A DNA stretch of 64,000 nt. Source: Cliona cf. orientalis (lineage: Eukaryota; Porifera; Demospongiae; Clionaida; Clionaidae). The notes under the pieces are model-generated. The model saw only the letters and a list, made by a program, of their open reading frames with translations. It was not told the DNA's origin and searched no databases. Shown piece after piece: positions 160-62,490 of the stretch. Position numbers and translations under genes: made by a program. The number at the start of each line of letters is the position of its first letter. Positions within the stretch are counted from its first letter, which is position 1. Location of the stretch: assembly GCA_963930775.1 (NCBI GenBank), contig OZ005697.1:4548292-4612291 (forward strand). The letters run 5' to 3'.

Positions 160-1230
160 CTAAATGAAAGGAGGAATGAATTCCTGACGCACCTTTCTGG
201 AGTCCACCGTGGTGATGTGCATGAAGTACAGAGAAATGAAGTATTCGAGGTTGTATTGAACTTGTACCGCAATAATCCTCAAATAATATCTGAATATCCA
301 TTTCGAGCAAAGTTTGTGGATGAGAAGGCAGTGGATATAGGTGGAGTTAGTCGTGATATGTTTTCTGCATTTTGGGTTGATGCATACATTCGTGCTTTTG
401 ATGGTTGCAATTCTCTTGTTCCACAAGCACACCCACACGTAGATCTTGCTATGTTCCCAGTGCTGGGTACAATCCTGTCTCATGGATTTCTTGTGACTGG
501 GATACTTTCTGTCAGAATTGCATTTCCTTGTCTTGCTGCTGTAGTGCTTGGGCCTATGGTTAGTATACCAGACTCCACCTTCATTGCATCACTAGCCGAC
601 TATGTTAGCCCTTACGAATGCTCCATACTAAAAAGAGCTTTCAGTATTACCATTGGATCCTTCCCACATGATCTATGTGAAGAGTTACTGTCTTTATTAA
701 GTAGGCTTGGTTGTCGTGAGGTGCCATCTCTTCAAAATATTCGACGTCTAGTAGTTGAAGTTGCAAAGCACGAATTTATAGCTAAGCCCCTACGAGTTCT
801 GTACGTGATGAACTCCGGTGTGCCAGCACCTCACATGGATTTTTGGAAGAGGTTCTCAGTTGATGAGCTCTATGATTTTTATAAAGAGCTCACTGCTACT
901 CCAGCAAATGTCATCCATATGATTAAAGAACCAGATACAGTTAACAGTGCCCAGGAAAATACATTCAGCTATCTAATTCGAATGATAGGAAGCATGAAGC
1001 AAGATGACCTTTGCAATTTTTTGCGCTTTGTGACAGGCAGTTGTGTTCCAGTGGATGATAAAATTCTCGTTACCTTCAACAGTCTATCAGGCTTTTCACG
1101 AAGGCCCATTGCCCACACCTGTGGATTCAGGCTGGAATTATCATCTACGTATCTCACCTATCATGAGTTTGGGGATGAATTTAAAACCATACTCAATAGT
1201 GAATATGCTTGGCTAATGGATTCTATTTGA
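160..1230 (+). CDS. HECT-type E3 ubiquitin ligase domain, last exon (5' part outside or unresolved)
   Basis: Encodes most or all of a HECT domain, which passes ubiquitin from an E2 to a substrate through a cysteine. The reading frame is open from just after the acceptor-like AG at 158-159, following a pyrimidine-rich tract, so this is read as a 3' exon rather than a gene starting at a Met. Visible HECT hallmarks are VDIGGVSRDMF near the front, LCNFLRFVTGS in the C-lobe, and RRPIAHTCGFRLEL with the candidate catalytic Cys 35 residues from the end. The stop is at 1228-1230. It converges on the integrase gene at 1497-3960. HECT genes of this divergent G2E3-like kind are often multicopy beside transposase genes in aquatic animals, so it may be transposon cargo (inference). 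The HECT domain call is firm; the 5' end and biological role are unknown. Confidence 0.75.
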   Translation, partial: LNERRNEFLTHLSGVHRGDVHEVQRNEVFEVVLNLYRNNPQIISEYPFRAKFVDEKAVDIGGVSRDMFSAFWVDAYIRAFDGCNSLVPQAHPHVDLAMFPVLGTILSHGFLVTGILSVRIAFPCLAAVVLGPMVSIPDSTFIASLADYVSPYECSILKRAFSITIGSFPHDLCEELLSLLSRLGCREVPSLQNIRRLVVEVAKHEFIAKPLRVLYVMNSGVPAPHMDFWKRFSVDELYDFYKELTATPANVIHMIKEPDTVNSAQENTFSYLIRMIGSMKQDDLCNFLRFVTGSCVPVDDKILVTFNSLSGFSRRPIAHTCGFRLELSSTYLTYHEFGDEFKTILNSEYAWLMDSI

Positions 1231-1496: not shown

Positions 1497-3960
1497 TTAA
1501 GGAAGTCTAATGTACGCTGGTAAAATTTTAATATCCACACCATAATCATCACTATCAGAGAGTGGATCAATGGTTGCTTTTAGTTCTTCAATTTGTTCGT
1601 CACTGATGTCCACTTGAATAGTGGGTACTACAATACCAGCTGCAGCTTCTTCAGGATCATCATCAGGTGGGATGCTATCATCTTCAAAGTCTACTCCATA
1701 TAATTCACTTGTATTATCAAAAAAATCAACAGCAATCTGACCTGCAGCTGAATTGCGTAATCTCAGTGCACCTTCAGTAAAGAGCTGATTCGGAGTTTTA
1801 CCACGTTCAGTACGAATACCATGACTATTCCAAGACAGCTTGAATTGATTCAATGCCCTATTAATTCTAGGTACGTAAATATAATGTAAAGCAAAAAGGT
1901 GAAGATTGTTGACTGGATTTAGAAGATCGTGATGTTCCATGTAATAAAACAATCGATAGAAAAGTTGAGTACAACATCTGTGCATGTCTCTCCATAGTCT
2001 CTCGATCCGTTGGTTATGAACAGAGCTTCCAACAATAATGCTTCCCCTATCAAGACCACGATGATGTAGCATGTGCTGTGCAACTAGACGGTTCTCAACC
2101 CCTTGATCACTCCGTACACGTGATGGTAGACCATATGTTTGTGCTGCTGCCAGGAATAAATCATACACTGTCGCTGATCGATTGTTAGTTGAGCATTTCA
2201 AATAGACGACCAATCTGCTGTAGCCATCAATACCACAGTGTGTCACTAAGCACCAGCGAATCAATTTATGGTGACCATCTGAAAATAACAATAATAATTA
2301 TGCATATCTGCATGTTATTAAAAAGGATAACTCTCTTGTGTATGATATTTTTAGTATTATTATGGCTATAATATATACAGTGTAATTCATTTTGAATACG
2401 TGCTAGCCTGCCGACTCCAAAAGCGAGAGAGAGAGAGAGAGGCCTGGTCTGGGAGATCGTGCGCATCCTATTTCAAATGCAAATCGGATACTATTAGATG
2501 TATAATAAAGATCTACACCACATAAACCTTGTGTTACTCAACAGGAACTGTTGGCACGCACAAGTATCTTCCATACATTATATGAAGTAGATAGAACAGA
2601 GAGCTAATCAAATAGGATATACCGTAGGACGGGTTTTAATTGCGTAGTTTAATAATTGCGTTGTAGTCAAGCCAGGCCAAATTGCGAATCCAATAATTGC
2701 GATAGACGACCCCGTACCGTACTGTAGTATACGTGCACGTTTACGTTTGCGAATCTATTACTTGCGAAACGTAGAAAAACTCGCAATTCGCAATTAATAG
2801 ATACTCGCAATTAAAACCCGACCTACGGTACCTTTCTCGGTAGCACAAGATTAGTGATAGAAGAATAAACCACTCTAGACCAAATGACTCAGTAACTGAT
2901 AGATAATAGTATAGAATTTGCCCCATAGGCATAGTATTAGATTACTGCGTAAGAGTACAATAAACAAATTACAGCTGTAATCCGTACTCTTGCCTATGCA
3001 TGGGAGTAACTAAATGTATTATTGTGACTGTAATCACTATACTATCCACTATGGATGAACATAACCATGCAGCTAGCTTGTTATAGTGATAAATTTTGAG
3101 TTGGCTATAAAATAAGCATGCGGGAAAAATCATAATTATTATTATAGTAAATAGCACTAGGGCATGTTTCAAGTAGCCGTAGTATCGGACCTACCAATGT
3201 GCCATAAGGAGTTTGGGCCAGGAACTGAATACGGCTGCCGCCTTGCTAGTTCTCCTCTCCACCGAAGAGCTCGTTGTAATGGGTCACTCTCTCTAATAGC
3301 TTCTCTTAACCGACTCCGAGTGATATGAAATCCCATTGATCGAAATCTTCCCCATATCATGGTTTCACCAAGTGCTGGTTGGTCTCTCTGTATTTCATTG
3401 AGGACAATACGCAACTCACCATCAGTCAGACTACCAGACGTAGAGGAAATTAAGCCATATTCAACTCTCCTCCGATAAATAGTCATTCGAGATACACCCA
3501 GCATATTAGCTATTTGTGTCCAATTAAAGGACATTGATGAGAGGTATTGAAGCTGGTCATGTGAGATTTGAAACTTAGGCCTTCCGGGACCCACAGCAGT
3601 TGTCATTGGTGCTGAATAACTTGTACTTGAATCCTGAGAGAGACTGAGTTGCATCAGTTGGTCGAGATAAGATTGCCATTCTTGAGCGGTGCTGTGCAGA
3701 TGTCTAATTAGTTCTGCTATTAGTGTACAGTATTCAGTTACGGTGGCTGATTCACTGCTGTTCAAACTACCCTCTGCAACTGTTGTGCGCAGTTGATAGA
3801 CTACGCTTTCTAGACTTCCACACGCAATCTCAATCCGTTCGAGGGCATAGTGGCTAAAAGATTCATTGGCAGTGCCGTGTTGACGATTCAATGAACGCAG
3901 AAATGAAGATAATTCCTCAAAAAATAGCTCCCATCCCCACATAGGTCCTCTTGTAGCCAT
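1497..3960 (-). CDS. Integrase-core (DD35E) transposase-like protein, two exons
   Basis: Exon 1 is 3195-3960 and exon 2 is 1497-2278. The 916-bp intron has donor GTAGGT and acceptor TTTTCAG. Phase 1 splicing rebuilds [13 protein letters not shown], so the first catalytic Asp spans the junction. About 515 aa. The N-half carries a helix-turn-helix ([16 protein letters not shown]) and a GRPKF motif. The C-half is an rve-type catalytic core: Asp in HIDGHH, Asp in RSDQGVEN and Glu in [10 protein letters not shown], with 34 residues between the last two, as in retroviral-type integrases. An acidic tail follows. The start chosen is the Met in MATRGPMWG; the frame is open further upstream but reads poorly. 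The catalytic triad is intact, so the protein may be active or domesticated. It belongs to the unclassified integrase family common in cnidarian, sponge and fish genomes; I do not assign a transposon superfamily. Confidence 0.8.
2622..2828. mobile_element. 207-bp MITE with TA target duplication inside the integrase intron
   Basis: Terminal inverted repeats of about 23 bp begin CCGTAGGACGGGTTTTAATT on the left. The right end is its complement with one mismatch, ending CCTACGG. TA dinucleotides lie immediately outside both ends (2620-2621 and 2829-2830), as expected for Tc1/mariner-type or pogo-type insertion. Internally it has several short direct repeats of TTGCGAAT type and no coding capacity. 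Confidence 0.85.
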
Positions 3961-4584
3961 AATTATATAATCATGGTATATATCTCGGATTATAACGGCC
4001 ACGCCCCACAAGCCGCACCCCATACACGCGCCGTTAGCCACGCCCATGCCACGCCCATATGGTTCCCGGTAACCCACCTTCAAGTGTTTGTACGCGCACG
4101 CGCATATCGCATACGTCCCTAGCGCCGCGCCGCGACATCACATTCCCATTCCATGGCCAGATTCCGGTGTCTGACACACCGTTGCGACTTTAAGACGTAA
4201 AATAGCGACTTCTGGGGAAGTCGTATTATTACGGCAGGAAGTTGCAATATTACGTCAGGAAGTCGCGAAATTACGTCTTCATTTTTGTTACGTTTGGCGT
4301 GCCATAGGGGCCATGAGTTAGTATAGTACGCGCGCGAAGCGCGCCCGCAAAATCTTAAGCCACGCCCACTAATTAACGGTACCGCGTTCGTGACACTGAT
4401 GGCGAAAATGAAGAAACAACGATGGATAACAGGCAAAAACAGTCGATTTCAAGGAGAACAGCAAAGAAACTAGCATAATTTAGACTCAGAGCTGACAGAA
4501 GGCTATTGCAGACTGGTAAAATTGACAAGTTCACTGTTTTTGCTTAGCACAAGGCAAGAGTGGGTGTGTCAGCCTGAAAAAGTG

Positions 4585-4760: not shown

Positions 4761-5479
4761 TTATACCGTATCAAAACGAATATCGTCAACTTTTTCATTC
4801 CATTCATATGTGGCTGATACTGCGCGATGGACAACTTCATTTCTATTAGGGGTGGGAGTACTACCAATATTAGCGAGAAACTCATGCAGCTCAATTTCTT
4901 TTTCTTCCGTTTTCTCTTTCGTGTCACCCAGCTTTCGCACCATACACTTGATTTTCTTCTTCGGATTGAAGCTTACTGAAATGCATTCAACATTACATTT
5001 AAATTTCTGAGTAACTTGGACATGTTTGGCAATTACTGTATACTTTGGAGGTATATAAACAGTTCTTTCAAATTGCTCTTCAACAGTTTTTACCTCAGAA
5101 ACAGTGGTTGTGACTTCTTTATGCCGATCATAGGTAATGCCAACTGATCCTGGACTTCCTGCAAATCCGAAAACCTCCAGACAAGGTGCTAGCTCAGCAC
5201 CGACACTCCACCCACTGCCTTTTGTGCGAGATTGCTCAGATCCCTTCTCGTAAGAGACTGTATACGACCACTTCTCCTCAATATCATTACTGGTGGTGTT
5301 AGGGTAGGGCAATGACACTTTAATAAGCTTCTCTTCTTTTCGTCCATCCAAACAGCGCCCTGTTACAATAGCTTCACTGAAATCTACACTTAATTTGTCG
5401 TCGTATTCCGCATGAACAAGCTGCTTTCCTTTCACCTTAAAGTAGAATGCAAGATCATTCTTAAACAGTAGTAACGTTC
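4761..5479 (-). CDS. C-terminal beta-rich domain exon, aerolysin-fold candidate
   Basis: Terminal exon of about 240 codons, entered through acceptor TTACTTTTAG at 5480-5481 in phase 1. It alternates polar and hydrophobic residues in long strands: WSYTVSYEKGSEQS, then KGSGWSVGAELAPCLEVFG, a Gly/Ser/Thr segment (GITYDRHKEVTTTVSEV), then TVYIPPKYTVIAKHVQV. This order (strand, amphipathic Ser/Thr-rich segment, V-x-x-P-P strand) is typical of aerolysin/ETX-MTX2/natterin-like pore-forming folds, but identity is too low to prove it by eye. It could instead be an unrelated beta-sandwich. If it is a separate gene, its start is not visible, because no Met begins the exon. Through the 37-bp exon at 5584-5620 it fits the protease gene upstream. 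Confidence 0.4.
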
Positions 5480-8400
5480 CTAAAAGTAAACGAAAGGATT
5501 TGTGGTCATAGTAATTTTTATGACAATCATAATTATGTGCATTGATTAGTTACTGTGACTACAAACTGCAATTTATTTTGTACCTCTCTTATCTTCATTG
5601 AATTCTGCAAACCTTGGAACCTGGACATGATAGTAGAGAGTTTTATGACATTATGTAAGAATGCATTCCAAGCCCTAATGGCATTAAATAAATCTAAATG
5701 TAGCACACTGGAAAGTGTTGGCATAATTTTGATGCATGTGTATTATAGAATGGCCTATAAGACAAGGCTAGCAAATATTTTACATGCTCTTGATATGCTT
5801 TATAGGCGGGTCCATCCCCACCTCCACTACCATAATATTATTATTATAGCGGGAAATTGAAAGGAGAAAACTTTCAAGGATAGGTAGGAAGAGAGCATTT
5901 TGTGGAAGAAATATTTGCGGAATGCTAAACCAGTGGGTGTGGTGTGCCTAAAATTTCGTGGACAAAACTTTCACAGATGGCTCTCAAATCATAAAGTTCA
6001 TAAAAACTTTCCCCTCAGCGGCTGTACGGTATATACCTATCACCAGTAGCTACCATTGCCTCACCAACCCTCTCCACAAATCAAGATCTTTCTACATCAC
6101 ATTCACCAAAGCTCATGAAGAAAATTTTAGATTCAGAATTTGCAGATATGGCAGAGCTTGTGCCCGGTGCATAGAAGCCACCAAAATGATGAAAGCACTT
6201 CCAGTAACCAGCCACAGATAATCCACAGCTACAGCCCCTCAACATTCTCCAGCCCAGTGTTAGATTTCTAAACATCTTGATATAATGAGTAATTAAAAAT
6301 GTGTCTCAATAGCTGCCAAATCTATTTCACTTGACTTACAGTTTGTTTTTTCATCGAGAAACTCATGAAAGCAGCCTCGATCAAGGGGCGTGGTTTGACA
6401 TAAAATAGGTGTGGTCATTTTTCACACACAATTGTATATTCAGCCCCAACAACCTTCAATACTTATTGCTGTTACTATTAATGGATGAGCGAGCGACATG
6501 AGGTCACTCCTTATAATTGCATACACACTTATTCAAAACAAAATACACTACCTATTGTTTATACTGATTGAGCATGATAATATATACTACTATTGTATTT
6601 TGCTACAGGTTACCACCAAGTACAGTATTGCATTGAACTGGCCCTTTTAAGCTCATTCTATGGTTTCATGTCCATATCCCTATAAAGTAACAGTGCCTTA
6701 TAAACAATGCCCCCCAATATTATTTTAGATTTTAACAGTCTGAAATTTGATTCAGAAAGATCAGAAAACCACGAATCACATGTAAGTCTATTATATAATT
6801 ATAGCTACATGCAACTCTAGTATAATCATAGGATCATCATGAATACACATGTATTCTTGCACTTACAAACCAAATGAGATGCTCTTTGGAGAGCTGCTGG
6901 TCTAGTGGTAGATAGAGACACTCTGCTCGGGTAGGTTGTGTCTCTGAGCTACTAATCTTCATGAGATGTACGTCTGGGGTCTGAGAGCAGGTGCACTTGA
7001 AAGCCAAATGGAAATTTTGTTGCTCAGCTTTCATCACATTGACAATCGTGTTACAGGCTAGGATGCATATCTCTGGGAATAGTAGCTCCGAGTAACCAGC
7101 CACAGATACTCGAAGTTCAAGGTAGCCTGGCTGAGAGATCAACATCAAATCAAATGCTTTCTTAATGCGAAATAAGGCCTTCTTCTGGTCATCACACATG
7201 ACACGATGCCACATCAAATTCCTATCGCCTACCAATGACGTCACTATATCTTCAAATGGTACTTTTCCTGACTCGAAGAAGAACACAAGTGAATTGTGCA
7301 TAATTTCATCATCAATAGAGTCATCTCCTGTATGTATTATATGAATGAAAGTCAGTGTGTGCATAATTATGTATAATAATATGTGCCAGGGGTATTTGTG
7401 CTGGCTGCGATCATAGACAAAGGAGGGTTAGAGGGATTGGAAATACCCAATATATTTCTATGGAGAGACAGGGAAAGAGAGAGATTAAAATTACCTTCTT
7501 GATAAGATTTAGCAACTGCCTCATCAAAGCTTGTTTCAGATTGATCTTCCTGTAGATAGATAGTATTAATAAGGTAACCAGAATTCTCAGAGGGAATGCC
7601 AAACAGAATGCAATTTGTCAAGAAATTCAGAATAGAGCAGTATTCCTATTCTTTATTGGCGACGCTTTAAAATTCCTCTCTATCCTGGATTCCATATTAC
7701 ATCAGTAATTCTGATTTGGCCTAAAATGTGTGTTGATCGATGCATTAGTATAGTCACCTGGTAATAGACAGAGCTCAGTAGGTGAAGATCCAACTTGGAG
7801 GGCCTACTGGCTAGCTGGTTGCAGTGGCTGTGAACGCCAAGGAGAACATTAGCTTCAGCACCAGTAAGCTTTCCTGACTTGAAGTCTTGCTCTATCTTCG
7901 CCCGCTTTGAATATCCATTGGTTAGCCAGCCAGTTTTGAACCTGAAATGCATGCAAGACCAAAAGACCACTACAGATGATGATAGAATTACCAATAATTG
8001 CAACACTGCCACTTTTAATTTGGCGATGAGATTTAGCTGCTGTTGCAGTTACCTTCACTACCAGCTCAATAACATTCCTTCACTCACAACATTCATGCAC
8101 AGGCAGAAAAAGGAGCCCCCCCCCCCCCACCACATACAACTTTATAAGCAGCAAGGGCTGAGCCTACTCATTTTTAAATGGGTATACTTTTGTATGCATT
8201 ACAATAAAAACTACTATCAGAAGGGCTCAGAACTACTCTCTGAGAGTACAATATTTTCATTAGGAGCATACCTCCAGACCTCTTAGATGGCTATTGGCCC
8301 TTATCTTTAAAGTCTGAGCCTTTGCAGAGCAACCTCCACCCTTGTCACATGCATCACAGACCTATATGTGGTAATTACTCTGCATTGCACTACAGTTTTT

Positions 8401-11400
8401 ATCTGCATGCTTCTCATCTCACATTCAAAAGATACCGTAACTACCCTAGCAGGCATGATCACGTAAAATTTAATAACCTCAAAGATAGGTAAATATACTA
8501 AGATTTATTGACTTCCTATACAGCAATCTGATTGGTCAGAATGTACACAATAGGTATTATGGAACATCAACTCACACTCACCAGTAGTGCATGATGCTAG
8601 TTGGATCATAGTCAGTGGAGGTACCGCTCAGATCTTGTTCAACATCCCAGTCAATTTTGAACTCCTTCTCTGTTATATTTAGGTCCTTCTTCATGCGATT
8701 GGTGTCAATATAAGGACTGATTAACTTCCAGAAATCAGAGCGCTGGTGCTCATGGGTGAGCCCAAGGATGTGGCCAAACTCATGGATGACAATATGCCTC
8801 TTGTAGAAATTGGAAATCTTTCCAGTGTGGAGATCCAGCCACATTGTTGGTCGGTCCTTCTTCACAGACTGAGCTTCCATTCCAACATAGGAGCGACAAA
8901 CACCATCATCTGTAATAATAATAATATTATTATAATGAGAATCCTTTGTGACAGTCATACTTATATTATGGCCTCTGCAAGTGGGAGTAGAATGTGCATG
9001 CAGCTGTACTATAGAATTATCTGTTTGCCTTCAAGCATCAATGAATAGTATTGGGGTATAATAATTACCCGCGCGCATGCGCAAGGGGTAAAGTAATCGG
9101 TTGTGTCGTCGTCGTCGTTGTCGTTGTTGTTGTCGTTAGCACAAAAATCGCCATATCTCGAGATATAGGCGTCTAAGCGACTCGTAAGTACAACGAATCA
9201 ATCGAATTTGGCGAAAAACTGGCTTCAGTGTGCGTCAAATCGAGGGATACGGTCCACGAACGTCACAAATAGTGTTTTTTTGTTGGCCACCGTAGCCACG
9301 CCTATCGACAGTGCCCATCAATGCATTATGCATGCCATTGTGCTTTCTGCTCATGCACAACTAAGTGGCCATGGTAAAGATCATCAAGTGTCACCCGGCG
9401 GGACCCCCAGCAACTAAGCAGCATTTCCACTACTTCTCTCAATTTAGGGCCATGCACCGAAAGTAAATCTATAAATTGCGCAATGTGCGCGCGGGGTATG
9501 TGCTCTACAGAGCTCTAGTTAATATTATTGTCATCTTCTTCCTAAAGCAGTAACAATAATGGAATCTATTATTATACCCAATACTTACTGTTTAATAGCA
9601 GGCGTACTTCTGCAGGCTCATTACCCTTGGCTAGTATAAACTCTGGTATGTTGTCGCCCCTCCACTCATTGGCCCAGCTCATAATGTTGCCAATATTGAG
9701 TGGATCACCACCATACATCCAACCGTCAGGAATTTCAGTCAGAAACTTCACCCTCAGTTGACCATAGCCTCTCCAAGCGACCTCTTTAGGTACGAACGCT
9801 GAACGCATGTTGCTGCTGATTTCATCACCAGAGTGTTGACCCTCACGTGAACTGATGGCTTCAGCTTCCACAATCGAGCATGTAGGCAGATTCTAATTAT
9901 TGATGCATACCAGAACATGATATTTCATTTAAGATGTCACAGCAAAGAGTATACACAATGCATTGATACCACCCCAGTAAAATTAGTGCTACAGCTAGAA
10001 TTATATATCCTTGCCCCCAATATTAGCCATTAGCAGGAGATAAATCCTGAGGGGGGACTGGAAATGAGACTACCAAGCAATGATCATAATTACGTACATC
10101 AGGAGCATATGAGCGTACATGTAGGGCACTTTAATAATAATATGATGAACTTATAGAAACCCAGTTGGTATAGTATACCTCAGATAAAAAGTGATCTCCA
10201 TTATCGTGAACCACAATAGGAGTTGCAGGAGGAGCAACAGGTTGTCCCTGGGGCAATGTCTGCAGCTGAGCATACAGAGGAGAAATAGGCTGGCCTTCTG
10301 GCAAAGTTGCAGGCTGAGAGGTTGAAGCTTGCCTTGGTGTAGGGGTTTCATGCAGAGCCCGAGGTGGCGACATCGGCTGATGACTAACAGCCTCAGATCG
10401 GTATGACCGCACTTGTGCAGGAGCACCATTGATAGGCTGAGGCTCAGGTAGAGTAGTAGGCGGAGCCAGCTCATGACTGATAGCCTGAGCATGACTGACG
10501 GTCTGTATTACTGGCTGTGGTAGACTTGTAGGCTGAGCCTGCTCATACATGTTGCCGACAGCCAGCCGTACAGTGCTCTCAGACTGAGTGGCTGGTAGAG
10601 TTACCGGCTGAGCATACGATGGAGAGGCTTTGTAATCAGGCCCTGCTTGAGACTTCGGCTCAGATGCAGAGTCTATAGAGTGATAGTCATAGCGAGATAT
10701 TAATAGCATCCTTTGATTCAAGCTACCATATAGAAATTTCACAACGATAAAACGTTCGTGAAATTTCAACTTTACAGTAAGGCATGCATGGCTAGAAGCT
10801 AAACCAGCCAAATATTAATTTATTAAACCACTAAATGTTTTCCCACAAAAATTTTAGGCTATACGGCATCTCTTACTCCCAGATTACAATGTTATTAATT
10901 TTAGATATGCGTAGAATGATGTACGTGGTTCATATTAAATTCATACAAAAATATATTATTTTAATCCTAGAAATGGTGTAGTTCTAAAAACTGATTGAGG
11001 TAAATGTTCAAGAGTCTGCAGTAAAGGAAAATTAAGAGGCATGATGTCCTTATAGTATATAGGAAAGGATTGGTTATAGCATCAAATGTTACGAAAGCTT
11101 CATGTTAAGTGGGATGAATTCAGGCTAAAGAATCAAAGCTTTGGATTCACATACCTGAACTGAATGTTGTTGCTCGGACCTTCTCAGCCAGTTGTCCAAA
11201 GCGAAGTGTCTTTGACTCCAGTGCATTGGCTAGTTCATCCTTGGTCACACCTCGCCTCAAGATCTCATCCAGTACACCATCAAAGCAATTAACAGTATCA
11301 TAGTGGTTTGACTGTACTATGGGATTGATATCTCCAGGGAGGAGACCGAGAGCAATGCCAAATAATCTGTAGCTAGAACGGACCTCCCAGATCAAGTCTC

Positions 11401-14400
11401 GAACTTCTCCAAAGTTACTGCTACCAAGAACCGCATTTCCTAAAGTGTCATAAGAAACAATGCAGAGAACCAGATAAGGCACTGCACTATAATTATAATA
11501 ATATGTGTGAGTATATACAACCACAATATTTGAGTAAACAGTTTTAAGACCTTAATTATTGGGGTGCATGTGAGATGCATAATTGAATGCACCACAATGA
11601 AGGTCTTGCAACTAGTTTATTGGCACATGATCCCTTCTCATCATTATGATCACCCACAGCCCTCTGATAGCCAGCAATTTGCCTATAAAACTTTGGTTGC
11701 TAGGTGATGGCCAGCAAGTGTGCACGGATGACCTACACATGCTAGATCTCCTCGCAGAGAAGGGCAGGCTCAATAGGTGCCTAATACCGTGGAATATAAA
11801 TCGTGTAGTCCCAAAATCATGCATCATACACAGTATACATGTACATAACACAAACATCTATTCGGTCAACATGGGGTTGCAGTATTCTGGTTTGTTGCCC
11901 ATGTGTGCATTAAGCGAATTTTTACCCCGCGTGCGCGCATGCGCAGCAGGGGGTAAAGCAATCGGTTTGTCTGTCGTCTATCGTCCGTCGTCTGTCAGCA
12001 TGAGAATCGGCAAATCTCAACATCTAAGCAAAGGTAGGATCGATAAATGGGATAAAATAATGTAAGACAGCAAAAAAAACACCGTTTGTCTCGTTCTTAA
12101 TCCTAGGCAGTACCCAGGGAAGCTACAAATCGTGCAAATGTATCGATCACGCCTACATCGGACACGCCCACCTAGTACCTTGTGAAATCTATTGCGCATG
12201 CTCGAGCTTCATGCTTCTAGCACTAAATTAATGTCATTTGTGATCATGGATCTCAGAAGAGAACTAAAACATTCGTGAGTAGCAAGAGAAAGAATAGAAG
12301 CCTCTAAGAAGAGGCATGGCCATGGGTGATATTACCATGGCACGCGGGGTATGTGCTCTATGAGCTCTAGTTAACCCTCGGCGCATGCGCGAGGGTTACT
12401 GTAGTTGGTTTGTGTGTCTGTCTGTTACCACGCTAGCTGCTACATACCTCGTTTGCGAGTCCAATTTGCAGTGTTGTAAGGTTCCTTATGGCGTTCCAAA
12501 CCCATGATTTGTGTGGATTTCTCCGAAAACACTTTGTTTGTCAGTTTTGGCGTCATTTTCCGATTCTAAGCTTCTTGACTTTGCCAGCATGACTTAACGT
12601 ATAAACAGGTTGCGCACTATATACGGTATGTACGTCTATTAACCCTCAGCGCATGCGCGGCTGTATCAATCCCACTGGCTATATATAGTAGTATAGTACA
12701 GTCTGTCAAGCTAGACCCCTTTTTCTCCCGACGACCTTTACCTACTCCTTAAGCCTTAGAATTGAAAAGAATTAAGCCACTGTCATCCCACGCTAAGCTT
12801 CCTGTATTCTTTTGACTCTCTGGCTTGTATGCATGCATGGGATTAAAAATATATTACAGTGCTTGAACCTGGCAAGTGAGTTGCGATAATGTTATTGGAC
12901 ATGCAATATTTCTCAGTGTATACTTCAGTCTTCTAGCTAAGTCCCCAAGAATTGGAGGTTAGGCTACAGTGAGGGAAGTTGAGTTGATCTCTACACCAAA
13001 GTTAGTCTCGCAAGCCACACCCTTCAATCTCCGCACGTGACTACACCACAGTGTGGAGTTCGATACAACACACTATGGTTGTTGCTGCTATGAGCCGTTG
13101 CACCTTGAATAACATTGCTGTGCAAGTATAACATTAGCCTCATCCCTGTCTCGCCCCGGCCCCAGCCCTTTAGCTACCTCCTTTCCGCATGCAACTGTTG
13201 AAGCATTTAGCTAATGCCATGCAGCGCGCCGAGGGTTTTGTGCTCGAGAGAGCTCTAGTTAATTTGGTGATCTCTACCGAATTCACCAAATCTTCAAATT
13301 AAAAACCGCACCAAACTTTCCTACTATACGGTATAGTATATTCTGTGTGTATCCACGCCTGCACATGTGAGTGCATGTGTACATCTGTTTATAATGCACA
13401 CATGAGTTTTTATCAGTTATAGGATGTGTGTATCATTGGGTAGCCTCATGACGAAAAAGGATCATAGGCAAATAAATCAGTTACATGCACATACATTGTA
13501 ACATTATGTTGGGTGTACTTGGTGCACTTGACCATATGCACCTCATGTACCCCAACATTGTCATAATATTATCATACATGTAACTACTATATTATGTGTG
13601 TGCATTTGTCGTATCCATACCTGGTGATGGTACTAGTTGTGGCCTGGAATGTCCTGGAATTAAGTAAGTTATATGTGTATAAATCACCAATTTAAAATTA
13701 TTATCCATGCACCTACCGGAGCCACTTGTAGGCAGTGGAGCAGCTATAAACATGTCTCGTATGTATGCAGCCCATGCTGGTTTGTTGGCTTTGAGAAAAC
13801 TCTTGATGAGGTTACGGTAGGTGGCATCTCTATCCCACGCCTTCCTCCACTCCCTCATCATGGCCAGCCTAATGGGAGGCAATGTGGTACACACACTCAT
13901 GAACTACACTATAAAAACATTAACATAATACAGTGGTCCCCAATGCCAGAAAATGTTGTATAGTGCAGCCATAATATTGGAAAATATTACTGTGACTGAA
14001 GCTAAATGAGCACCGAGCAATGACAGACAAATGGCCACTCCTTGAAGAGATTAGTAGCCAGGGTGAAATAAGTTGTAGCCATTGGTGAATTTGGCGACTA
14101 CAATACATTGTATTTCTGCACTATCAGTGAAGTACAAGTAAGAGTTTGACACCACCAGTACTTGCACTAAGGGGGAGGGGGGATATTATGCACTCAGTAA
14201 TAATTTACTTTTTTGCGGTTATTAGGTAATTATGATGAAACCTATGGTGTAATCTATGAGGTAATTATGAGAAAATTCAGGGCCTCGATGGAGCCCTTCT
14301 GGGACTTGAACTTCAGTGAAATATGTAGAGTATCTTGTGCGTGTATCCAGCGAATACCTTACAAGCAGCGTGTTGCCTTCTCTGACGAGCAGTGACGGCC

Positions 14401-15982
14401 AAACTTCACGCGTTCTCTACGCTGACGTAATCCCATGAATATATATAGATAGCCCTGCGCTATATATAGCACGCACCATGAGCAGCGTGCAATCTAGCTG
14501 TACTGCGCTGATGAGTTCTTCTTAGCTTTGAAATTTTTCACTATCGAGGTCCAGAGACACTCAGATTCCCGATGATCCGAGGCTAGTCTGCGACTGAGGC
14601 GCCGGCATCGTATACTGTACAGTGAAGTGAACTCACTATATTGACGACCTTTACCATATACACCATTTCAACCATGCAGCTACTGAGTGTATGGTCAAGT
14701 TTTCATAGAAATGCAATTCCATTGTAATGAACATTTTGGTGGTATTCTTACATGTAATTAATGGCAAAATAATTTACACTGTGGATTAGTAGTCTAGGGA
14801 AAGGGCACCTGGCTATGCATATACAAACAGAAAGCCCCCGTGTCATGCAGCTACCAATTTACTCTTTCCACTGGACAAGTGATCAGTGAAGCAAAATACA
14901 TCCACTTTTATCACAACTCATTCACTTTTTAGACAATAATATTAATTTTGTTGGCCATCACACAATGTGGCAAATTGCCGGATACCAGAATGGTATGGGG
15001 TAGGCTAACACACTAGCCTCGAGATCTTAATTGGGATGCACGAAATGCATGTCGAATGACCTTAACTGGGGTGTATTTGACCCTGTATTTTGTGTATCCC
15101 AATTAAAGCTTTGCAACTACAGTGGAACCCCACTTAACGGACACTCCTCAACAGTGGACACCTGCGATATAACGGACAATTCTAAATGTCCGGATTGTAT
15201 TTCCATAGCCTTCAAACCCCCTCAACAGTAGACACCCCGCTATTCCGTATAACGGACACTTATTTTGGTCCCGTTCGAGCCTGCGCAATAGTGAACAACC
15301 TCGCATAACGGACAGTTAGGCCACACCCACCATCAAAATCAGTCGGTGTCAGCGACCAGTAACTACAATAAATCCTAAAATTGATGTTTCATATTCTTGC
15401 TTAGGAGCTGTCAGTTGACAGATCTCTCATCAATACGGTCTTTTTCGTCGTCCACAGTAGTGCTTTATCATAGCTGGCAGCGATTGTAGGAGGGGCGTGG
15501 TCAACCACTAACCCCTGAGCTAAGGACACCTCGCTATAGCGGACAAAATGTTTGGTTCCAATGGTGTCCGCTTTAGAGGGGTTCCACTGTATAACTTACT
15601 TCATTCCCATTTTAATTATAGGTGAGGAATTTTGCTGACAATTTGGAACTATTTCAGGTACTACCGTATATATATACTACTATAATAATGTATGTATTAA
15701 ATAATCAAGTGCCAATATTACCGGTATATTACAACAATGGCATTACTTTTGGTTGTCAAAAGTGCTGTAGCGACTCTTGATAGTCTCCTGTGTCATAGAT
15801 CCCAGCTCAAGAGAAAGGGCCACCTCTCCCTCCCAACTGTCAATCACCTTAGCAATCTTTAACAAATCATCTTCCTTCAAACTCCCATCACGATACTTTT
15901 CACCGAAATCAACGATCATATCCAGCTTGTACCTGTTCTCGGGAGGAACAGCATTGATGTAATCATCCACATGGAGAGACAT
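4761..15982 (-). CDS. Death domain - death domain - astacin-type zinc metalloprotease - beta-rich C-terminus
   Basis: Twelve exons in consistent phase: 15747-15982, 13717-13868, 13621-13653, 11155-11439, 10179-10672, 9589-9892, 8582-8909, 7758-7941, 7495-7549, 6867-7327, 5584-5620, 4761-5479. About 1,095 aa. Residues 30-125 are a death domain split over exons 1-2 (DSWEGEVALSLEL; REWRKAWDRDATYRNLI). Residues 145-230 are a second death domain (FGIALGLLPGDINPIVQ). Residues 236-400 are Pro/Gln/Ser-rich. Residues 430-615 are a metzincin with HEFGHILGLTHEHQR (ligands H544, H548, H554; base E545) and Met-turn SIMHYW, matching astacin HExxHxxGxxHExxR. Residues 690-844 hold a CTCSQTPDVH...KEHLIWF module that I associate with sponge death-domain proteins. 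The tail is beta-rich (see 4761-5479). No signal peptide or membrane segment, so an intracellular protease is inferred. Exons 1-10 are strong; joining exons 11-12 rests on phase and splice sites only. Confidence 0.75.
5621..6866. other. Long intron of the death-domain/astacin gene with decayed repeats
   Basis: No further exon needed for the model. A stretch at 6100-6240 weakly echoes, on the minus strand, the SVAGY segment of the neighbouring exon and may be a decayed partial duplicate. An alternative gene end exists: reading straight through the donor at 6865-6866 meets a stop at 6837. Confidence 0.4.
9066..9523 (+). mobile_element. HINE/DINE-1-like element, copy 1 (intron of death-domain/astacin gene)
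   Basis: Begins TTACCCGCGCGCATGCGC and carries a GTC/GTT microsatellite (9105-9140). Near the end it has the subterminal inverted partner GTGCGCGCGGGGTA, then the hairpin CTCTACAGAG and the terminus CTCTAGTT. The same architecture recurs at 11.9, 12.4, 24.8, 31.2 and 43.7 kb. Non-coding. Assignment to Helentron-associated elements is by structure only. Confidence 0.6.
11921..12372 (+). mobile_element. HINE/DINE-1-like element, copy 2
   Basis: Starts TTTACCCCGCGTGCGCGCAT with a GTCTGTCGTC microsatellite after it. The end has the matching subterminal repeat GGCACGCGGGGTATG and terminus GAGCTCTAGTT. It lies in the large intron between 11439 and 13621 and directly abuts copy 3. Confidence 0.6.
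12371..13260 (+). mobile_element. HINE/DINE-1-like element, copy 3 (longer subfamily)
   Basis: Starts with the near-perfect palindrome AACCCTCGGCGCATGCGC followed by GAGGGTT, then a GTGTGTCTGTCTGT microsatellite. It ends with the inverted partner GCGCGCCGAGGGTTTTG, then GAGAGAGCTCTAGTT. A degraded second subfamily start at 12643 (AACCCTCAGCGCATGCGCGG) suggests nesting. Confidence 0.55.
13470..13570. repeat. Short palindromic element around a microsatellite-like core
   Basis: GTAACATTATGTTGGGTGTA at 13498 is mirrored by TACCCCAACATTGTCATAAT near 13549, with GGTGCACTTGACCATATGCACC at the centre. A small foldback of about 90 bp, non-coding, just 5' of exon 3 of the death-domain gene. Confidence 0.5.
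14205..14660 (+). repeat. Dispersed repeat (second copy in the cofilin intron at 33888)
   Basis: Shares the opening TTTTTGCGGTTATTAGGTAA, the middle ATCCAGCGAATAC, AACTTCACGCGTTCT and TATATATAGCA with 33888-34215. Lies in the first intron of the death-domain/astacin gene. It ends near GACGACCTTTACC, a phrase also present at 18359 and 45568. No coding capacity; superfamily unknown. Confidence 0.6.
15120..15589. mobile_element. pogo/Tigger-like MITE, 470 bp
   Basis: Ends CAGTGGAACCCCACTTAACG and CTTTAGAGGGGTTCCACTG are inverted repeats, with TA on both sides. The interior repeats GGACAC/AACGGAC units. A second copy in inverted orientation lies at 38050-38439. Termini of the CAGTGGAACC type with TA duplication are typical of pogo/Tigger-derived MITEs in animals. 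Confidence 0.8.
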
Positions 15983-38100: not shown

Positions 38101-40038
38101 TATAGCGAGGTGTCCTTAGCTCAGGGGTTAGTGGTTGAACACGCCCCTCCTACAATCGCAGCCAGCTATGATAAAGCACTATTGTGGACGACGAAAAAGA
38201 CCGTATTGATGAGAGATCTGTCGACTGATAGCTCCTAAGCAAAAATTTGAGACATATTTAGGCTTTACTGTAGTGTACTGGTCATTAAAACTGACCGATT
38301 AATGGTGGGTGTGGCCTAACTGTCTGTTACTGTTGAGGGGTTTGAATATAATACGGAAATATAATCCGGACATTCAGAATTGTCCGTTATATCGCAGGTG
38401 TCCGCCGTTGAGGGGTGTCTGTTAAGCGGGGTTCCACTGTACATGTAATATTATGCACACACATACATGTAGCGTAACTTACTTCAGTTGAGGTGGCACT
38501 GACTGTGGTTCTGAAGAGGTGCACCACAAGAGTCATGAGGAGGGAGACTCCAAGCATCACCGGTGCCCTCGGACACTTCCTCTGCTCAGTACACTACATG
38601 CACGGAGTACACATGCATATACACATGTACATGTACGTACATGTGTATGTATGCATGCAGCAAAATATAATCACAAGAGCATCATAGTAGTAACTTTATA
38701 CAGTATATTCATATTGCATGTGGATGTAGATATGAAATAAATTGGAAATATACATGTAAGTAACACATGTAACACATGTACATGTACATGTACATGTACA
38801 GTATGTTATAGTTGCAAAACCTTAATTGGGGTGCATGGTCGAATGCACTAGTTTGTTGGCCCATGACCCCCTCTCATCATTGGCCTAGCCTATTGATCAC
38901 CCATATCCCTATGATATCCAGCAGTTTGACTTTGGTTGCTAGGCAACAGCCAACAATAGTATTCTGTCACTAGTTACCTTACATTGTAACAACTACAGTA
39001 TAACTTACCAAGCCAAGTACGTACATGTATGTACATGTACACACAAACACAAATACATGTACCACATACATGTACTAGTTAAGGTACATGTATACATACT
39101 TGCACATGTAGAGTACTCACTGATGTAATGAAGGTATCTGAAATTGATCCGACCACAATGTTCCCAAGCATTCCTCCAACTTGGGCCACACCAGAACAAG
39201 CGGCAGCACTCTCTTTCGATTTTCCTGATACTTCAGTGAAATAGAGCAGTGACCATCCCAGGATACCATCTTTCACTGCATAGACACAGGCATACACTAT
39301 GGCCACAATCCAGAGGTCAAACATGAAGAAAACGCTGTACCAAGATGGTCCTGATGTATTGCTACTACATGTAGACAAAGTGCTCGTTTTGCCTTCCTTA
39401 GCCATTGAACCAGTGCTTCCAAACTCTATCTTTATGTCAATTTCTGCCGGAGAATCTTTAATGCAGAGGAAGGCAGTACATCCAGCAATGAATGTAATTA
39501 ATCCAGCAACATAGTAGCTTGTAGTCCAGTCCGAGAGGGAGGAGATGTAGATGACAACGAGAGGACACAAGGCCGTCGCCACGTTCCCTGCGGAGGAGAG
39601 CAGACTCCACCACCGCCCCATCTGTGAGGGAGGGTACCAGTTCTTGAGTAGCACCGCACATGGAGCCCATCCACACCCCTGGAGGATACCTGTCATCAGT
39701 CGGAGAAATGACGCCATCCAGACATTCTTGGCCATCGGAAAAATGATGGAACTAAATCCAGTCAACATGAGACCGACGGAAAATATCTTTCTTGGGCTAA
39801 CGTGGTCAGAGAGGATGGACATGACTAGCTTGCTGACGCCATAGCCAGTGGAGAAGCTGCTGATGATCATTCCTACCTCATCCCTTCTGAATCCCTGCTC
39901 CTCAATGAGGCTAGTTGTGGAAGCAGGAAGCATCCGTCGGCATAGGACGAAGCAGCTCCAACCAACGAACATAGTAACATAAATAATCAATCTTTGTCGC
40001 CAGAAACGAGCCGTCTCTGCTTTGGGTAATGTGTTCAT
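35108..40038 (-). CDS. SLC37-type sugar-phosphate/phosphate antiporter (SLC37A4-like)
   Basis: Exons 39121-40038, 38483-38581, 36288-36426 and 35108-35283 join in phase to 443 aa, near the 429 aa of human SLC37A4. The start is the ATG of MNTLPKAETARFW. Major facilitator hallmarks: FWRQRLIIYVTMFVGWSCF (TM1), GYGVSKLVMSILSDHVSPRK (TM2-3 loop, MFS signature A), LQGCGWAPCAVLLKNWYPPSQ (SLC37/GlpT-type TM4) and a later AACSGVAQVGGMLGNIVVGSISD. It is expected to exchange glucose-6-phosphate or glycerol-3-phosphate for phosphate in an internal membrane. It has no long central loop as in SLC37A1-3, hence the A4-like call. Shares a 100-bp divergent promoter with TRAPPC2. Introns carry a pogo-like MITE and another repeat. 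Confidence 0.88.
36699..37071. mobile_element. MITE-like element in an SLC37 intron
   Basis: TATTTATTTGAATAGAACTC at the left and GCTACTATTTGAATAAATAC at the right are imperfect inverted ends. Both ends hold direct TAGTAGC units (ATTAGTAGCCAC, GAATAGTAGCTGC; AATAGTAGCTGCAGC). No conserved protein. Confidence 0.6.
38050..38439. mobile_element. pogo/Tigger-like MITE, 390 bp, second copy
   Basis: CAGTGGAACCCCTCCAAAGC ... GTTAAGCGGGGTTCCACTG with TA on both sides. It aligns with 15120-15589 in inverse orientation; shared interior phrases include AAAGACCGTATTGATGAGAG (here) and its complement. Lies between SLC37 exons 2 and 3. Confidence 0.8.
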
Positions 40039-40138
40039 CGTGGCCAAGTGTACCTGTACATGTGCCTGTGGTTCGGATAGGAAAAGGTCGTCAAAACTGG
40101 TGCTTTCTATTTAACGCGCACTATAGGAGAGGACGGTG
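40039..40138. promoter_or_regulatory. Divergent promoter shared by SLC37-like and TRAPPC2 genes
   Basis: Only 100 bp separate the two start codons (40038 on minus, 40139 on plus). No TATA box is obvious; TTAACGCGCACTATAGGAGA near 40110 is the only GC-rich patch. Both 5' UTRs and both core promoters must fit here unless an untranslated upstream exon exists. Confidence 0.6.
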
Positions 40139-49747: not shown

Positions 49748-52700
49748 TCCAGTGGTAATGCTACATCACCTTATCTCAATGTCGATATGCATAGCTACCT
49801 TCTATACATCCAACAATTGTATATAGCTACAACGTAATGAAACAGATTCATGTAAGGAAGGTGATTCTCTATCGTAATAAGCGCGATTTTCAATGGTAGC
49901 AGACAAAGTGTATTCAACAAAATTGATCATAATAACAATTTATTTGGCACTAACAAAGATTACTTTCAGTCTCCATAGTTCCTAACAAAACGAATCCTAA
50001 TGGTTAATTTAATAATCCAGCATATGCATTTAATTTCCTATTCCAGTTTGAAATGTGATTAACACACTAGAATCATTAAAAATCCTGCGAGTCATGACAA
50101 TAATTGTAGGGATTATCAATACGGTCAGGAAGTGACTCAGAAAGAGAAAGTTCCACATGTACAGACTCTGAGGATCTTGTACTTCGTTGTTTAGTTGACA
50201 CAATTTGGAAACGATGTAGTGAAATGAAGCGATACTTTATCAAACAATTGCAAAGTTTGCAAAACATATAAATGAGGAGTACTGCTTGAGGGACTGCAAT
50301 CAAAATCAACACGATAGCTAGCACAAGCACATTTAACGTTTTGTTCGCTGTATTCTGCGAGGCAAAACAGATAAGACCACTTATCAAAGCCAACACGGCC
50401 AGGAGCAGACTATCCAAGATATTCATACGCTGATCCTTGTACGGCCTGACTAGAGCAAAAAATAGCAAGAGTAGGAATACCCAGACAAACGATAATGTCG
50501 ATTGACAACTAACAAACGCTGTAGCACTGCATCCAACATATGTAATCAGAAACAGCATTCTCAGTATCATGTAAAGACTGGCAGTAAATCTGAGATCATA
50601 GCTCCCATCAAGGCCATCTTTGTAGCAACTTTGAAATAAATCAACGAAGATATAGACAGCAAGTGTTTTGTGAAGATGAATGCTAGTCATGATTTTCTGA
50701 AAACATTTGGTTTGATAAAATGCTAAAACAAGCAGTGGTGGTACAGCAACCACTAGTAATGTGAAAAATAGTATCAAAGCATATGGAAGGTGGTTAATGG
50801 AATCAAAATATGCTACTTCTGGGTTATATAACAAGTATGTGGTATTGCTCCAGCCAGACGACACTCGGTATATATGCTGAAAGCTATACACAAAGTACAA
50901 TTCAATGATGTACCTAGAATAAGACAACAAGAGAAATGTTGAGAATACATCAACCAACGTAACCTTCGTGTTCCTAACTTTTGCATACCAAGCAAAACAT
51001 CTTTGAAAAGGCTTCCAAAACCAGATAGCCAGCTTAAAGTTTCTGGCATACAATCTTATGCATATCCATGAAAAAGCAACAAGAAACAATGGAAAAACGC
51101 TCTTAATTTGTGTCAAAGAAAATGCCTGTTGTATACTGACGCTTGAATCAACACAAAAATCAGTTATCCCTACTCCACGAACGAGGCCAAGCAAAGACAT
51201 CATCCAAATTCCAATACTCACTAATGATACATAGTGAGCTTTCTCTAGTGCAGGATTATATTCAACATAAGGTGGTTGAAAAAGATAAGAATGAGTAAAA
51301 ATAATAGCAAGAGAAAGTTGATAAAACACCACAAGTGCATTCATTGGTGGTTTTGCAATACTTACCCTGAATACTAGAATCAGTAGAAACAGAATAAGAA
51401 CCGGAATAAGTTGGACCATCATATAAAAGACCCAACCTTGTCCACTGCTAAAGTTGCACTGCATACAGTTCATGAATACATTTGGTATAGCTAAGCCATA
51501 TCCAGTTTTGCACTTACTGCACAAGTACCCTTCTCTATTCCATCGCCCACACATAAAATCATTCAAATCAGACACATTTGTAGGTAGTTCAACATAGCCA
51601 TTCCGTGAGAAAGCCTCATGTTCTCTTGCAAACAACGTGTAGGGGCACTTGCCAACATCAATACTTCCAGTTTCATTATCAAATGTCATGCACAGACCTC
51701 TTGCTAAGTACACTCTTTGATTGAGATGATCACAAGTTACCCAAGACATCAGATCATGGCACATACAACGATTCAATGTATCATTAAAGGTATACCATAC
51801 CGGACAGCTTTCATCCTTGTCAATGGCGGATAGTGTCTTCAATTCCAAGAGAAACACCACCGCATTCACAAAGAACAAGCCAAAAACTTGCTTCTTGAAC
51901 ATGCTGATCGATTTACTACTCGTCTATGCAAGTGTGACAGACCTGTTATTCATAGTGGTATTGCAATGTGACCTGCTATGACAAAAGGGACCAGTCATGT
52001 TAGTATGAAACTAGATCAATTTTTATCATGACAATATCCAACTTGCTTTCTACAAATGTAGTAGTGAGTATACTTGTATCACATTAATATACAGTGGATA
52101 CACCTACAGAATACACTTTATACTATATGCATACTATATAGTACAACGACAAACATGGAGTCCCAAATGGTCCCTTTTCTCACAGTTGGTCACATATGAC
52201 TCACTGTTATCACAATACTGTGTACATTTATATACTGAGTGTATAATTAGTACATGATAAAGATACGTAGCATCTGTGCACTATTCTGTGGTTCCCCACA
52301 CTGTTGCCAAAATCACCATTTGCAATTATCTAATGGCTTCTGGTGATCATCTAGGGCATATTTCTTCTTCAATCCTTATCTTGCGTAATTGCATATGCAC
52401 ATGAACGCCAGTTCCCACAAAAATTACCCTGCCTGTGCATGCAAAGGCTTATGCACATGCGTATACTGTCACACAATTTCATAGACACCGCCGGCATCCT
52501 TAGTGGAGTTTGTCTTAATTTCCACTTGTTCATTCTCCTGTAATTCTAAGTTGGAAAGACACCCCACGAGTAAAAGCCATAATATTATTGCTTTCTTGGA
52601 AAGCCTATCGTTGCCTGTTCCTACAATTGAACAGAATGGTCCTGCTGAACGGGGTAGCTGATAAAATATCTGCTGTAGTAAGTGATTGTAAAGAATTGAA

Positions 52701-56863: not shown

Positions 56864-57239
56864 GTTAATCGATTTACTACTCGTCTATGCAAGTTTGACA
56901 GACCTGTTATTCATAGTGCTATTGCATAACATATCACTTTTCACATTCATTGTTATCACAATACTGTATACATTATACTGAGTGTATGATTAGTATAATT
57001 ATGATAAAGATAGTATCTGTGCACGATTTCTATGGTTCTCCACACTGTTGCCAAAATCACCATTTGTGATTGTTCAATGGTTTCTGGTGATCATCTAGGG
57101 CATATTTCTTCTTCAATCCTAATCTTGTGCAATTGCATATGCACATGAATACCAATTCCCACAAAAAATTGTGCATGTGTATACTGTCACAATTTCATAG
57201 ATATATTCTCCTGCAATTCTAAATTGGAAAGATATCCCA

Positions 57240-61620: not shown

Positions 61621-62067
61621 CACTCTGCTCCTTCATCCATTATTATACAATCTTATTTTACATGCCTTATACTATTTTACTTGCACTTGTATCTTTTATG
61701 TGTACGTGTGTACTTTGATCTATGCCCAAGTGGGCCTGCAAGACATGAAATACATTTCCAGCACCAAACTTTGAACCTATGCTATGGTGTAGACCACACC
61801 CCTCACTACAGGCTGAGTAGAATCTGTACAATATTACACTATTCAAAGATTTACTCCAGCGTTAACTGGCAGGAAAGAGTGTAGGGGTACACTCTTTCCT
61901 GCCAGTTACTATCGGGAAGAGGAGAGTGCAGGGGTACACTCTTTCTTTCCAGTTAATAAGCAGGGAAAGAAGAGTGCAGGGGTACACTCTTTCTTTCCAG
62001 TATTAGTTAGATTCGGGAGAGCAATAGTGTGGGGGGTACACTCTTTCTTGCCTGTTAGTAAGGTAAG

Positions 62068-62490
62068 GTGATGGCCAATCTTATGCAGTGCAAGAAGGAG
62101 AATATTAGGGTAATTTATGAGAACGTGCAGAAACAACGTGGGGCGAGCGATTGTGGCTATTTTGCCGTGGCATTTGCTACCATCCTATGCTATGGAAAGA
62201 GCCCATCCAGTGAGAGCTACTGCCAACGAGCAATGAGGGAGCACTTAATCAATGCATTTGATAAGAGGAAAATTGACGACTTTCCTACAAATGCAAAACG
62301 CCGACCAGGGAAGCCAACGATTCAACGCATTCCAGTCTACTGTGTTTGCCGCCTGACCGATGATGGATCACAGATGATAGAATGCATTGACTGTGGGGAA
62401 TGGTTCCACACTGGAAGTGTACAGATTGAACAGGCATACATAGTAAACCACGATCTAGAGTGGACATGTGAGAAATGTAAAACTAATTGA
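62068..62490 (+). CDS. Ulp1-type protease C-terminal piece fused to a PHD finger
   Basis: The ATG used is at 62071; the frame opens just after the terminal hairpin array. Residues 17-50 (NVQKQRGASDCGYFAVAFAT, ILCYGKSP) match the Gln/Cys end of the Ulp1/SENP C48 catalytic domain, including the presumed nucleophile in SDCG. The His-Asp half of the triad is not encoded, so it cannot be a complete protease. Residues 90-139 are a PHD finger (VYCVC, MIECIDCGEWFH, WTCEKC), but the Cys expected three residues after the His is a Ser (HTGS). Ulp1/PHD proteins occur as cargo of several eukaryotic DNA transposons. This is a truncated cargo gene or the last exon of a longer one. Confidence 0.6.
   Translation: MMANLMQCKKENIRVIYENVQKQRGASDCGYFAVAFATILCYGKSPSSESYCQRAMREHLINAFDKRKIDDFPTNAKRRPGKPTIQRIPVYCVCRLTDDGSQMIECIDCGEWFHTGSVQIEQAYIVNHDLEWTCEKCKTN

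Follow-up and report, generated by a model that had tools for sequence, protein, structure and literature searches.

A candidate sponge gene in which death domains precede a bacterial-type astacin protease

Architecture of the locus

We examined a stretch of 64,000 nucleotides of the sponge Cliona cf. orientalis (GenBank assembly GCA_963930775.1, contig OZ005697.1, positions 4,548,292 to 4,612,291), hereafter "the window", whose internal coordinates are used throughout. On its minus strand, from 15982 to 4761, 12 exons separated by 11 GT-AG introns join into a single open frame of 1,095 residues that ends with a TAA stop codon at 4761; the intron phases are, in order, 2,1,1,1,0,1,2,0,1,0,1. 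The predicted protein begins with two death domains and continues with a Pro/Gln-rich linker, a zinc protease related to astacins, an alpha/beta module and a beta-rich tail. Exon order, phase, death-fold domains, an intact zinc site, a leaderless start and a cysteine at the position of a switch can all be read in the DNA, and the same type of protease is found repeatedly near death, TIR and SAM-like domains. We lean, somewhat beyond an even chance, toward the interpretation that a single gene at this locus encodes an intracellular effector zinc protease activated by clustering. The twelve in-phase exons and the order of domains had been proposed in an earlier note made from the letters alone; its coordinates are correct, the frame is open, all introns are GT-AG, and the order agrees with the translated model. 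The parts of the gene model are the following:

15747..15982, minus strand: exon 1, residues 1-79, start codon and first part of death domain 1 (profile match to FADD, E 1.9e-4)
13717..13868, minus strand: exon 2, residues 79-130, second part of death domain 1 (profile of relatives)
13621..13653, minus strand: exon 3, residues 130-141, short linker of 12 residues
11155..11439, minus strand: exon 4, residues 141-236, death domain 2 (profile match to RIPK1 and FADD)
10179..10672, minus strand: exon 5, residues 236-400, Pro/Gln-rich linker, 3' end uncertain
9589..9892, minus strand: exon 6, residues 401-502, candidate cysteine-switch segment and N-terminal half of the protease
9878..9880, minus strand: codon of Cys405, candidate cysteine switch, 139 residues ahead of the first zinc His
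8582..8909, minus strand: exon 7, residues 502-611, zinc-binding part of the protease (Pfam Astacin, 1.6e-11)
8740..8784, minus strand: zinc-binding signature HEFGHILGLTHEHQR, in exon 7
8582..8598, minus strand: Met-turn SIMHYW, whose W codon takes its final base from the following exon
7758..7941, minus strand: exon 8, residues 611-672, C-terminal end of the protease domain (alignment of paralogues, whose frames stop shortly afterwards)
7495..7549, minus strand: exon 9, residues 673-691, short linker
6867..7327, minus strand: exon 10, residues 691-844, alpha/beta module of unknown fold
5584..5620, minus strand: exon 11, residues 845-857, short linker with a weak donor
4761..5479, minus strand: exon 12, residues 857-1095, beta-rich tail of 239 residues, possibly of aerolysin type, and stop codon

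Pfam detected no death domain in the full window protein at E<=10; neither death domains nor module nor tail came up when single exons or the full protein were searched. The death domains became visible when relatives were included. For exon 4, a profile of 14 sequences combined the exon of the window with 11 relatives (14 were fetched, and L047, L055 and L056 excluded) and with two death-domain frames of locus L039, one of them already a Pfam Death match at 1.1e-7. This profile matches the death domains of RIPK1 (6e-6) and FADD (1.5e-4), and at E<=0.1 Pfam Death recognizes 11 of its 14 members, not including that of the window. Exons 1-2, combined with three relatives from L039, gave a match to FADD at 1.9e-4; at E<=5 Pfam Death picks up all four members of that set, the best at 5e-6 and that of the window at 0.021, which is under the cut-off. 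The two death domains announced earlier are thus confirmed by the profiles of their relatives, the window copy alone remaining below the Pfam cut-off. The hidden Markov model search that the earlier note had recommended gave a divided answer: Astacin is found by Pfam above its cut-off, and Death is missed by Pfam in the full protein and recovered with relatives' profiles. The genome contains 95 further matches to exon 4, and a genome-wide first look yielded 1,292 death-domain candidates, 150 of which were scored; hence, the module is common in this genome.

No signal peptide was seen at the N-terminus, where the best hydropathy over 9 residues is 0.7 in the first 40 residues, a judgement made by hydropathy without a dedicated predictor; the frames read from the genome's classical copies cover the catalytic exon only and offer no positive control. 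The best value over 19 residues in the whole protein is 1.5. The absence of a secretion signal, as claimed earlier, therefore holds for the start of the model, and the label "receptor-style" finds no support, as no membrane segment was seen.

The protease and its candidate cysteine switch

The Pfam Astacin family (PF01400) matches the full protein with 37.5 bits (cut-off 22.5) and the exon 7 frame with 44.7. The signature HEFGHILGLTHEHQR and the Met-turn SIMHYW, described earlier as complete, are both present and intact. When affinity was examined, the nearest solved structure proved to be bacterial myroilysin: a single-sequence search gave 1.9e-11 for myroilysin versus 0.0026 for BMP1, and a profile of six sequences, one of them bacterial, gave 2.2e-30 versus 2.7e-6 for animal astacins. 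Judged by sequence, then, the protease is of bacterial type, resembles myroilysin and has a candidate cysteine switch; it is not, as had been supposed, a classical secreted astacin deprived of its signal.

In myroilysin, according to the accessible part of PMC9848320, a prosegment cysteine takes the place of the zinc-bound water and keeps the enzyme latent. Cys405 of the window protein is a candidate for the same role. Bacterial relatives were surveyed for such a residue: 78 of the 80 loci fetched contained a zinc-motif frame, and in 75 the frame extended upstream for 125 residues or more. A cysteine lies 108-150 residues ahead of the zinc His in 69 of the 75, versus 13 of 75 in a control stretch of equal length; two Myroides genomes are among the 69, and some of the loci counted are closely related to one another. 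Forty of the 69 lack a hydrophobic stretch of 11 residues in the 60 residues before the cysteine, so a missing signal peptide is not unusual in the myroilysin-like branch. Apparently leaderless astacins with a cysteine switch were noticed in Thauera, Arthrobacter, Rhodococcus, Pseudomonas and others.

With bacterial M12A enzymes (myroilysin and relatives in Myroides, Chryseobacterium, Thauera, Arthrobacter and other genera), the window enzyme shares HExxHxxGxxHE, the Met-turn, the pre-catalytic cysteine and a small number of catalytic-domain cysteines. It differs from them in that it is split by introns, follows death domains and a long linker, and precedes two C-terminal modules. With canonical animal astacins such as BMP1/tolloid, meprin and crayfish astacin it shares the metzincin signature, the Met-turn and the Pfam Astacin match. 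Four catalytic-domain cysteines are the rule in these canonical enzymes. The window protease has two and lacks both a signal peptide and FXGDI; FxGD, the aspartate switch, is absent ahead of the catalytic domain in the translated window model. In the portion of PMC9848320 available, animal astacins are described as extracellular proteins with a signal peptide and a prosegment that carries FXGDI and the aspartate switch.

Cysteine counts and phylogenetic trees separate the two types within the same genome. The window-type family has 0-2 catalytic-domain cysteines (10 of 10 rows, some of them partial), and the classical astacins of this genome have 4-5 (7 of 8 fetched; L001 is not included). In trees of 54 and 49 rows, support was 95 and 98 for the window-type family; for the classical astacins, represented by just two rows in the first tree, it was 99 and 100. 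Bacteria formed one group with support of 35 and 68, and long branches meet there. In each tree the bacterial rows (42 and 32) included P0008, the other 41 and 31 being drawn from the 78 bacterial frames, and 10 long or otherwise divergent rows were dropped from the second tree. Given the low support for the bacterial group and the long branches, we claim neither a direction of transfer nor a nesting within the bacteria.

Related loci and the C-terminal modules

A search of the sponge's own genome found the protease exon in at least 21 places, the window included, and the others are 46-60% identical to the window copy. The zinc site HEFGHxLGLxHEHQR is present in all 18 loci inspected, again with the window among them. 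The Met-turn MHYW is found in 17 of these 18 copies, the exception being L019 (C4:6.70M), where it reads MHNW and the tyrosine is lost. Every one of the 18 has a splice donor at an identical base of the Met-turn codon. Frames resembling exon 6 were found in 13 copies and, as judged by eye, ten of them have C[ST] ahead of the protease.

Upstream DNA was examined for 11 of the 21 loci. Co-oriented death domains were found in five: the window, C8:180.7k, C8:178k, C8:318k and C4:6.70M. The evidence differs from one to another, being a Pfam match of 1.1e-7 at C8:178k; a Pfam match of 8.8e-4, under the cut-off and after joining pieces, at C4:6.70M; membership of the locus itself in the exon 1-2 profile at C8:180.7k; and a match to that profile at 3e-38 at C8:318k, where the frame alone has no Pfam match. 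A SAM-like segment lies between the death domain and the protease in four loci and is weakly seen ahead of two more (C1:9.09M and C1:14.49M); the call was made by eye and with a home-made profile, and Pfam matched none of three spliced segments. A different domain is found at C8:247k (L042, C8:240001-249500), where a TIR domain (TIR_2, 5.6e-17) occupies positions 5289-5771, about 1.4 kb upstream of the protease. There the TIR domain and the protease frame, which runs from 7211, are co-oriented, and a TIR-astacin fusion is possible. A CARD-like frame upstream of the C5 copy was also considered, and the look was not borne out.

At the C8 loci the frame ends soon after the protease, which there forms the C-terminal effector, and module and tail are additions of the window gene. 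Being closely related duplicates, the C8 copies do not count as independent events. Searched at full length, the window protein had no match in the protein collection. The protease searched alone had eight matches in that collection, and relatives 92% and 78% identical exist in other sequence sets. The tail searched alone had 21 protein matches including the window's own; the other twenty come from other sequence sets and are 44-90% identical (the closest 90%, the next 68-79%). The presence of relatives of the protease exon and of the tail in other sequence sets indicates that these parts are conserved.

Module and tail occur together twice on C10 (L040 and L041; C10:7103001-7121000), where no adjoining protease was found. 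Coiled-coil-like frames, recognized by eye, lie upstream of them. The structure model of the exon 10 module has a predicted local distance difference test (pLDDT) score of 61 and no fold match at E <= 0.001, the best being 0.093.

For the tail, 18 sequences gave no Pfam match above the cut-off, and the model built on a 3-row alignment has a pLDDT of 30. The best solved structure for the 18-tail profile is lysenin, at a non-significant E of 0.1, ribosomal proteins coming next at 0.55. The alignment covers some 90-95 residues and ends at an IPP motif; the lysenin stretch involved is, we assume, its pore-forming part. ETX_MTX2 domains, which are of aerolysin type, matched eight places in the genome, and six of them (L139-L144) were compared with the tail. 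Alignment with hhalign involved the same stretch at P 0.012 (controls 0.29-0.65), with a probability of only 3.6%. An ETX profile placed the window tail first of 628 background frames, with 6.8 bits (next 4.5), and none of 500 shuffles scored as high. In the reverse comparison, the tail profile gave 13.2 bits with L141, above all of 400 shuffles, and -2.4 to 5.1 bits with the other five, where 2 to 44 of 400 shuffles did equally well. It is thus plausible, if weakly so, that the tail is a pore-forming module of aerolysin type. The "beta-rich tail" of the earlier note is a separate module, present also where no protease was found and possibly aerolysin-like.

Proposed function and alternative explanations

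A tentative scheme can be drawn as follows. The two N-terminal death domains would gather copies of the protein on a death-fold scaffold. The flexible Pro/Gln linker would bear a bacterial-type astacin kept as a latent zymogen by Cys405 on the zinc. Upon crowding, one copy might cut or dislodge the switch segment of another, a trans-activation that would resemble that of proximity-activated caspases. The activated protease might then cut nearby proteins, perhaps including the stretch that joins it to module and tail. Cytosolic location, activation by clustering and a role in immunity or cell death are what we infer from this arrangement, and the caspase-like logic of a metzincin recruited through death domains is proposed by analogy. 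Caspases on death-fold adaptors are alike in having a death-fold N-terminus and a protease in one chain, and differ in protease class, since the window enzyme is a zinc metzincin; Pfam found no caspase domain in the full window protein. A further speculation, which we regard as improbable, is that a whole death circuit is contained in one chain: clustering would activate the metzincin, and self-cleavage would free an aerolysin-type pore module. With the same low expectation, such a circuit could be seen as a counterpart of the inflammasome adaptor, caspase and gasdermin, assembled from unrelated parts.

Several observations weigh against the clustering-activated effector protease. The drawn donor of exon 5, at the join of death domains and protease, scores 0.55 and ranks 297 among the 650 GT sites of the locus, as scored with a small matrix made from the window gene and its relatives. 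Introns reach 2.2 kb, and two exons have just 33 and 37 bases. No domain of the death, TIR or SAM-like types was found in the 6-6.5 kb examined upstream of C8:9.227M, C5:9.773M and C8:921k (three of 11 loci). With regard to the switch, C[ST] is missing from three of the 13 copies: in L031 and L038 the cysteine is not followed by S/T, and L028 has no cysteine. The myroilysin cysteine is not aligned directly, as local alignments end before it; it is matched by its position and through the Myroides genomes. A low cysteine count in the catalytic domain was considered as a sign of cytosolic location and discarded, since no more than one is also found in 61 of 78 bacterial relatives, and none in Myroides. 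As regards the aerolysin-type reading of the tail, other tails do less well than that of the window, and P0009, P0010 and P0011 behave like shuffles, 90, 117 and 109 of 500 scoring as high.

We infer that the twelve exons form one transcript. The recurrence of the domain order at other loci favors a single gene, and the fusion is independent of the site drawn for exon 5, as stronger donors are found at 10604 (8.6), 10511 (7.1) and 10412 (5.3), all with an open frame and a phase that fits exon 6; the linker may then be shorter. The donor of exon 11 is also weak (2.1), and the other nine score 6.4-10.8. Two neighboring genes, one for a death-domain and Pro/Gln protein (exons 1-5) and another for protease, module and tail (exons 6-12), with phases that match by chance, might explain the weak drawn donor and the existence of module and tail without protease elsewhere. 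This explanation seems, however, quite unlikely, as exon 6 has no Met ahead of Cys405, exon 5 has the better donors just mentioned, and at four other loci a death domain, a SAM-like segment and a protease point the same way, in three cases within some 3 kb. A shifted frame that yields a secreted protease can also be conceived: the ATG at 10492 or that at 10474 begins a hydrophobic stretch with signal-like hydropathy (2.2 over 9 residues), and 10492-10427 joined to exon 6 is an open frame with a leader-like start directly ahead of the protease. Some bacterial relatives, such as the Myroides enzymes, do have a hydrophobic leader. Yet the stretch is a shifted frame of a low-complexity linker, and a search for donors from 60 bases beyond each start found only poor in-frame sites at 10426 (-0.4, rank 375 of 650) and 10384 (-2.5, rank 495 of 650), far below those of the linker frame. 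Relatives carry death, TIR or SAM-like domains upstream instead, and we give the secreted form hardly any credence. As to a start codon downstream of the death domains that would give the protease a signal peptide of its own, named in the earlier note as evidence against a fusion, none is well supported, since 10492 and 10474 both need poor donors.

If the protein is a single intracellular chain, its function may still differ from the one proposed. It could be a constitutive processing or trafficking protease in which the death domains serve merely for dimerization, and, with death domains so abundant in this genome, their presence alone tells little about function. This alternative is an unlikely one that deserves attention; it is disfavored by the occurrence of the protease type near death, TIR and SAM-like domains and at so many places, a pattern that we associate with conflict systems. 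The protease might also be a bystander or a pseudo-enzyme, the protein acting as a scaffold or decoy, as the loss of the Met-turn tyrosine in L019 could suggest. The zinc ligands of HExxHxxGxxH and the catalytic Glu, intact in every copy inspected, render that explanation very improbable.

Comparable proteins are known from another sponge. In the part of PMC8195603 available, Amphimedon is reported to have 357 TRADD-N proteins, most with N-terminal death-like domains and variable C-terminal effectors; those listed are ankyrin, SH3-LRR, kinase, MATH, SH2, PDZ, caspase, PNPase and HD, with astacin not named there and the word appearing once, in the reference list. The window family resembles these proteins in its lineage-specific expansion, in having 1-3 N-terminal death-like domains and in an exchangeable C-terminal effector. 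Pfam detected no TRADD-N in the full window protein, where it also misses the death domains. The words astacin, peptidase and protease are absent from the main text of a study of Dysidea NLRs (PMC12909245), as far as the accessible portion goes. No fusion of a death domain to astacin is named in the titles and abstract openings listed by our searches of open-licence papers; supplementary tables, for instance those of PMC8195603, might list one. Animal death-fold adaptors with swapped effectors are known, and what appears to be new here is an astacin-type zinc protease in the effector position.

To our knowledge, animal death-fold pathways end mostly in cysteine proteases or kinases. If the proposal is true, coupling a zinc protease to death, TIR and SAM-like domains would solve the same problem independently, with latency provided by a cysteine switch. 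An animal lineage would have brought its own signaling domains together with an enzyme of bacterial type and perhaps with a module that forms pores. Astacins, extracellular in animals according to the available part of PMC9848320, would join the list of intracellular effectors. The window gene and its family of about 20 copies thus give a hint of an unusual intracellular link between alarm and proteolysis.

Other features of the window were also recorded. Just downstream of the protease gene, frames at 1500-2297 and 3172-4137 (minus strand) contain an integrase core (rva_4, 7.8e-77) and a weak helix-turn-helix, and probably belong to a mobile element. A HECT ubiquitin-ligase-like frame (4.5e-6) lies at 160-1227 (plus strand), and a major facilitator transporter frame (MFS_1, 1.8e-35) at 39082-40110 (minus strand). 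Frames at 59715-60732 look retroelement-like by eye, and 62062-62487 (plus strand) encodes a PHD finger (2.1e-7) that follows a weak Ulp1-protease match. Two tandem single-frame genes of 615 residues, at 50079-51923 and 55040-56884 (minus strand), have a hydrophobic stretch near the start; the 50079-51923 copy has no Pfam match above the cut-off, and the two are, by eye, nearly identical over 60 residues.

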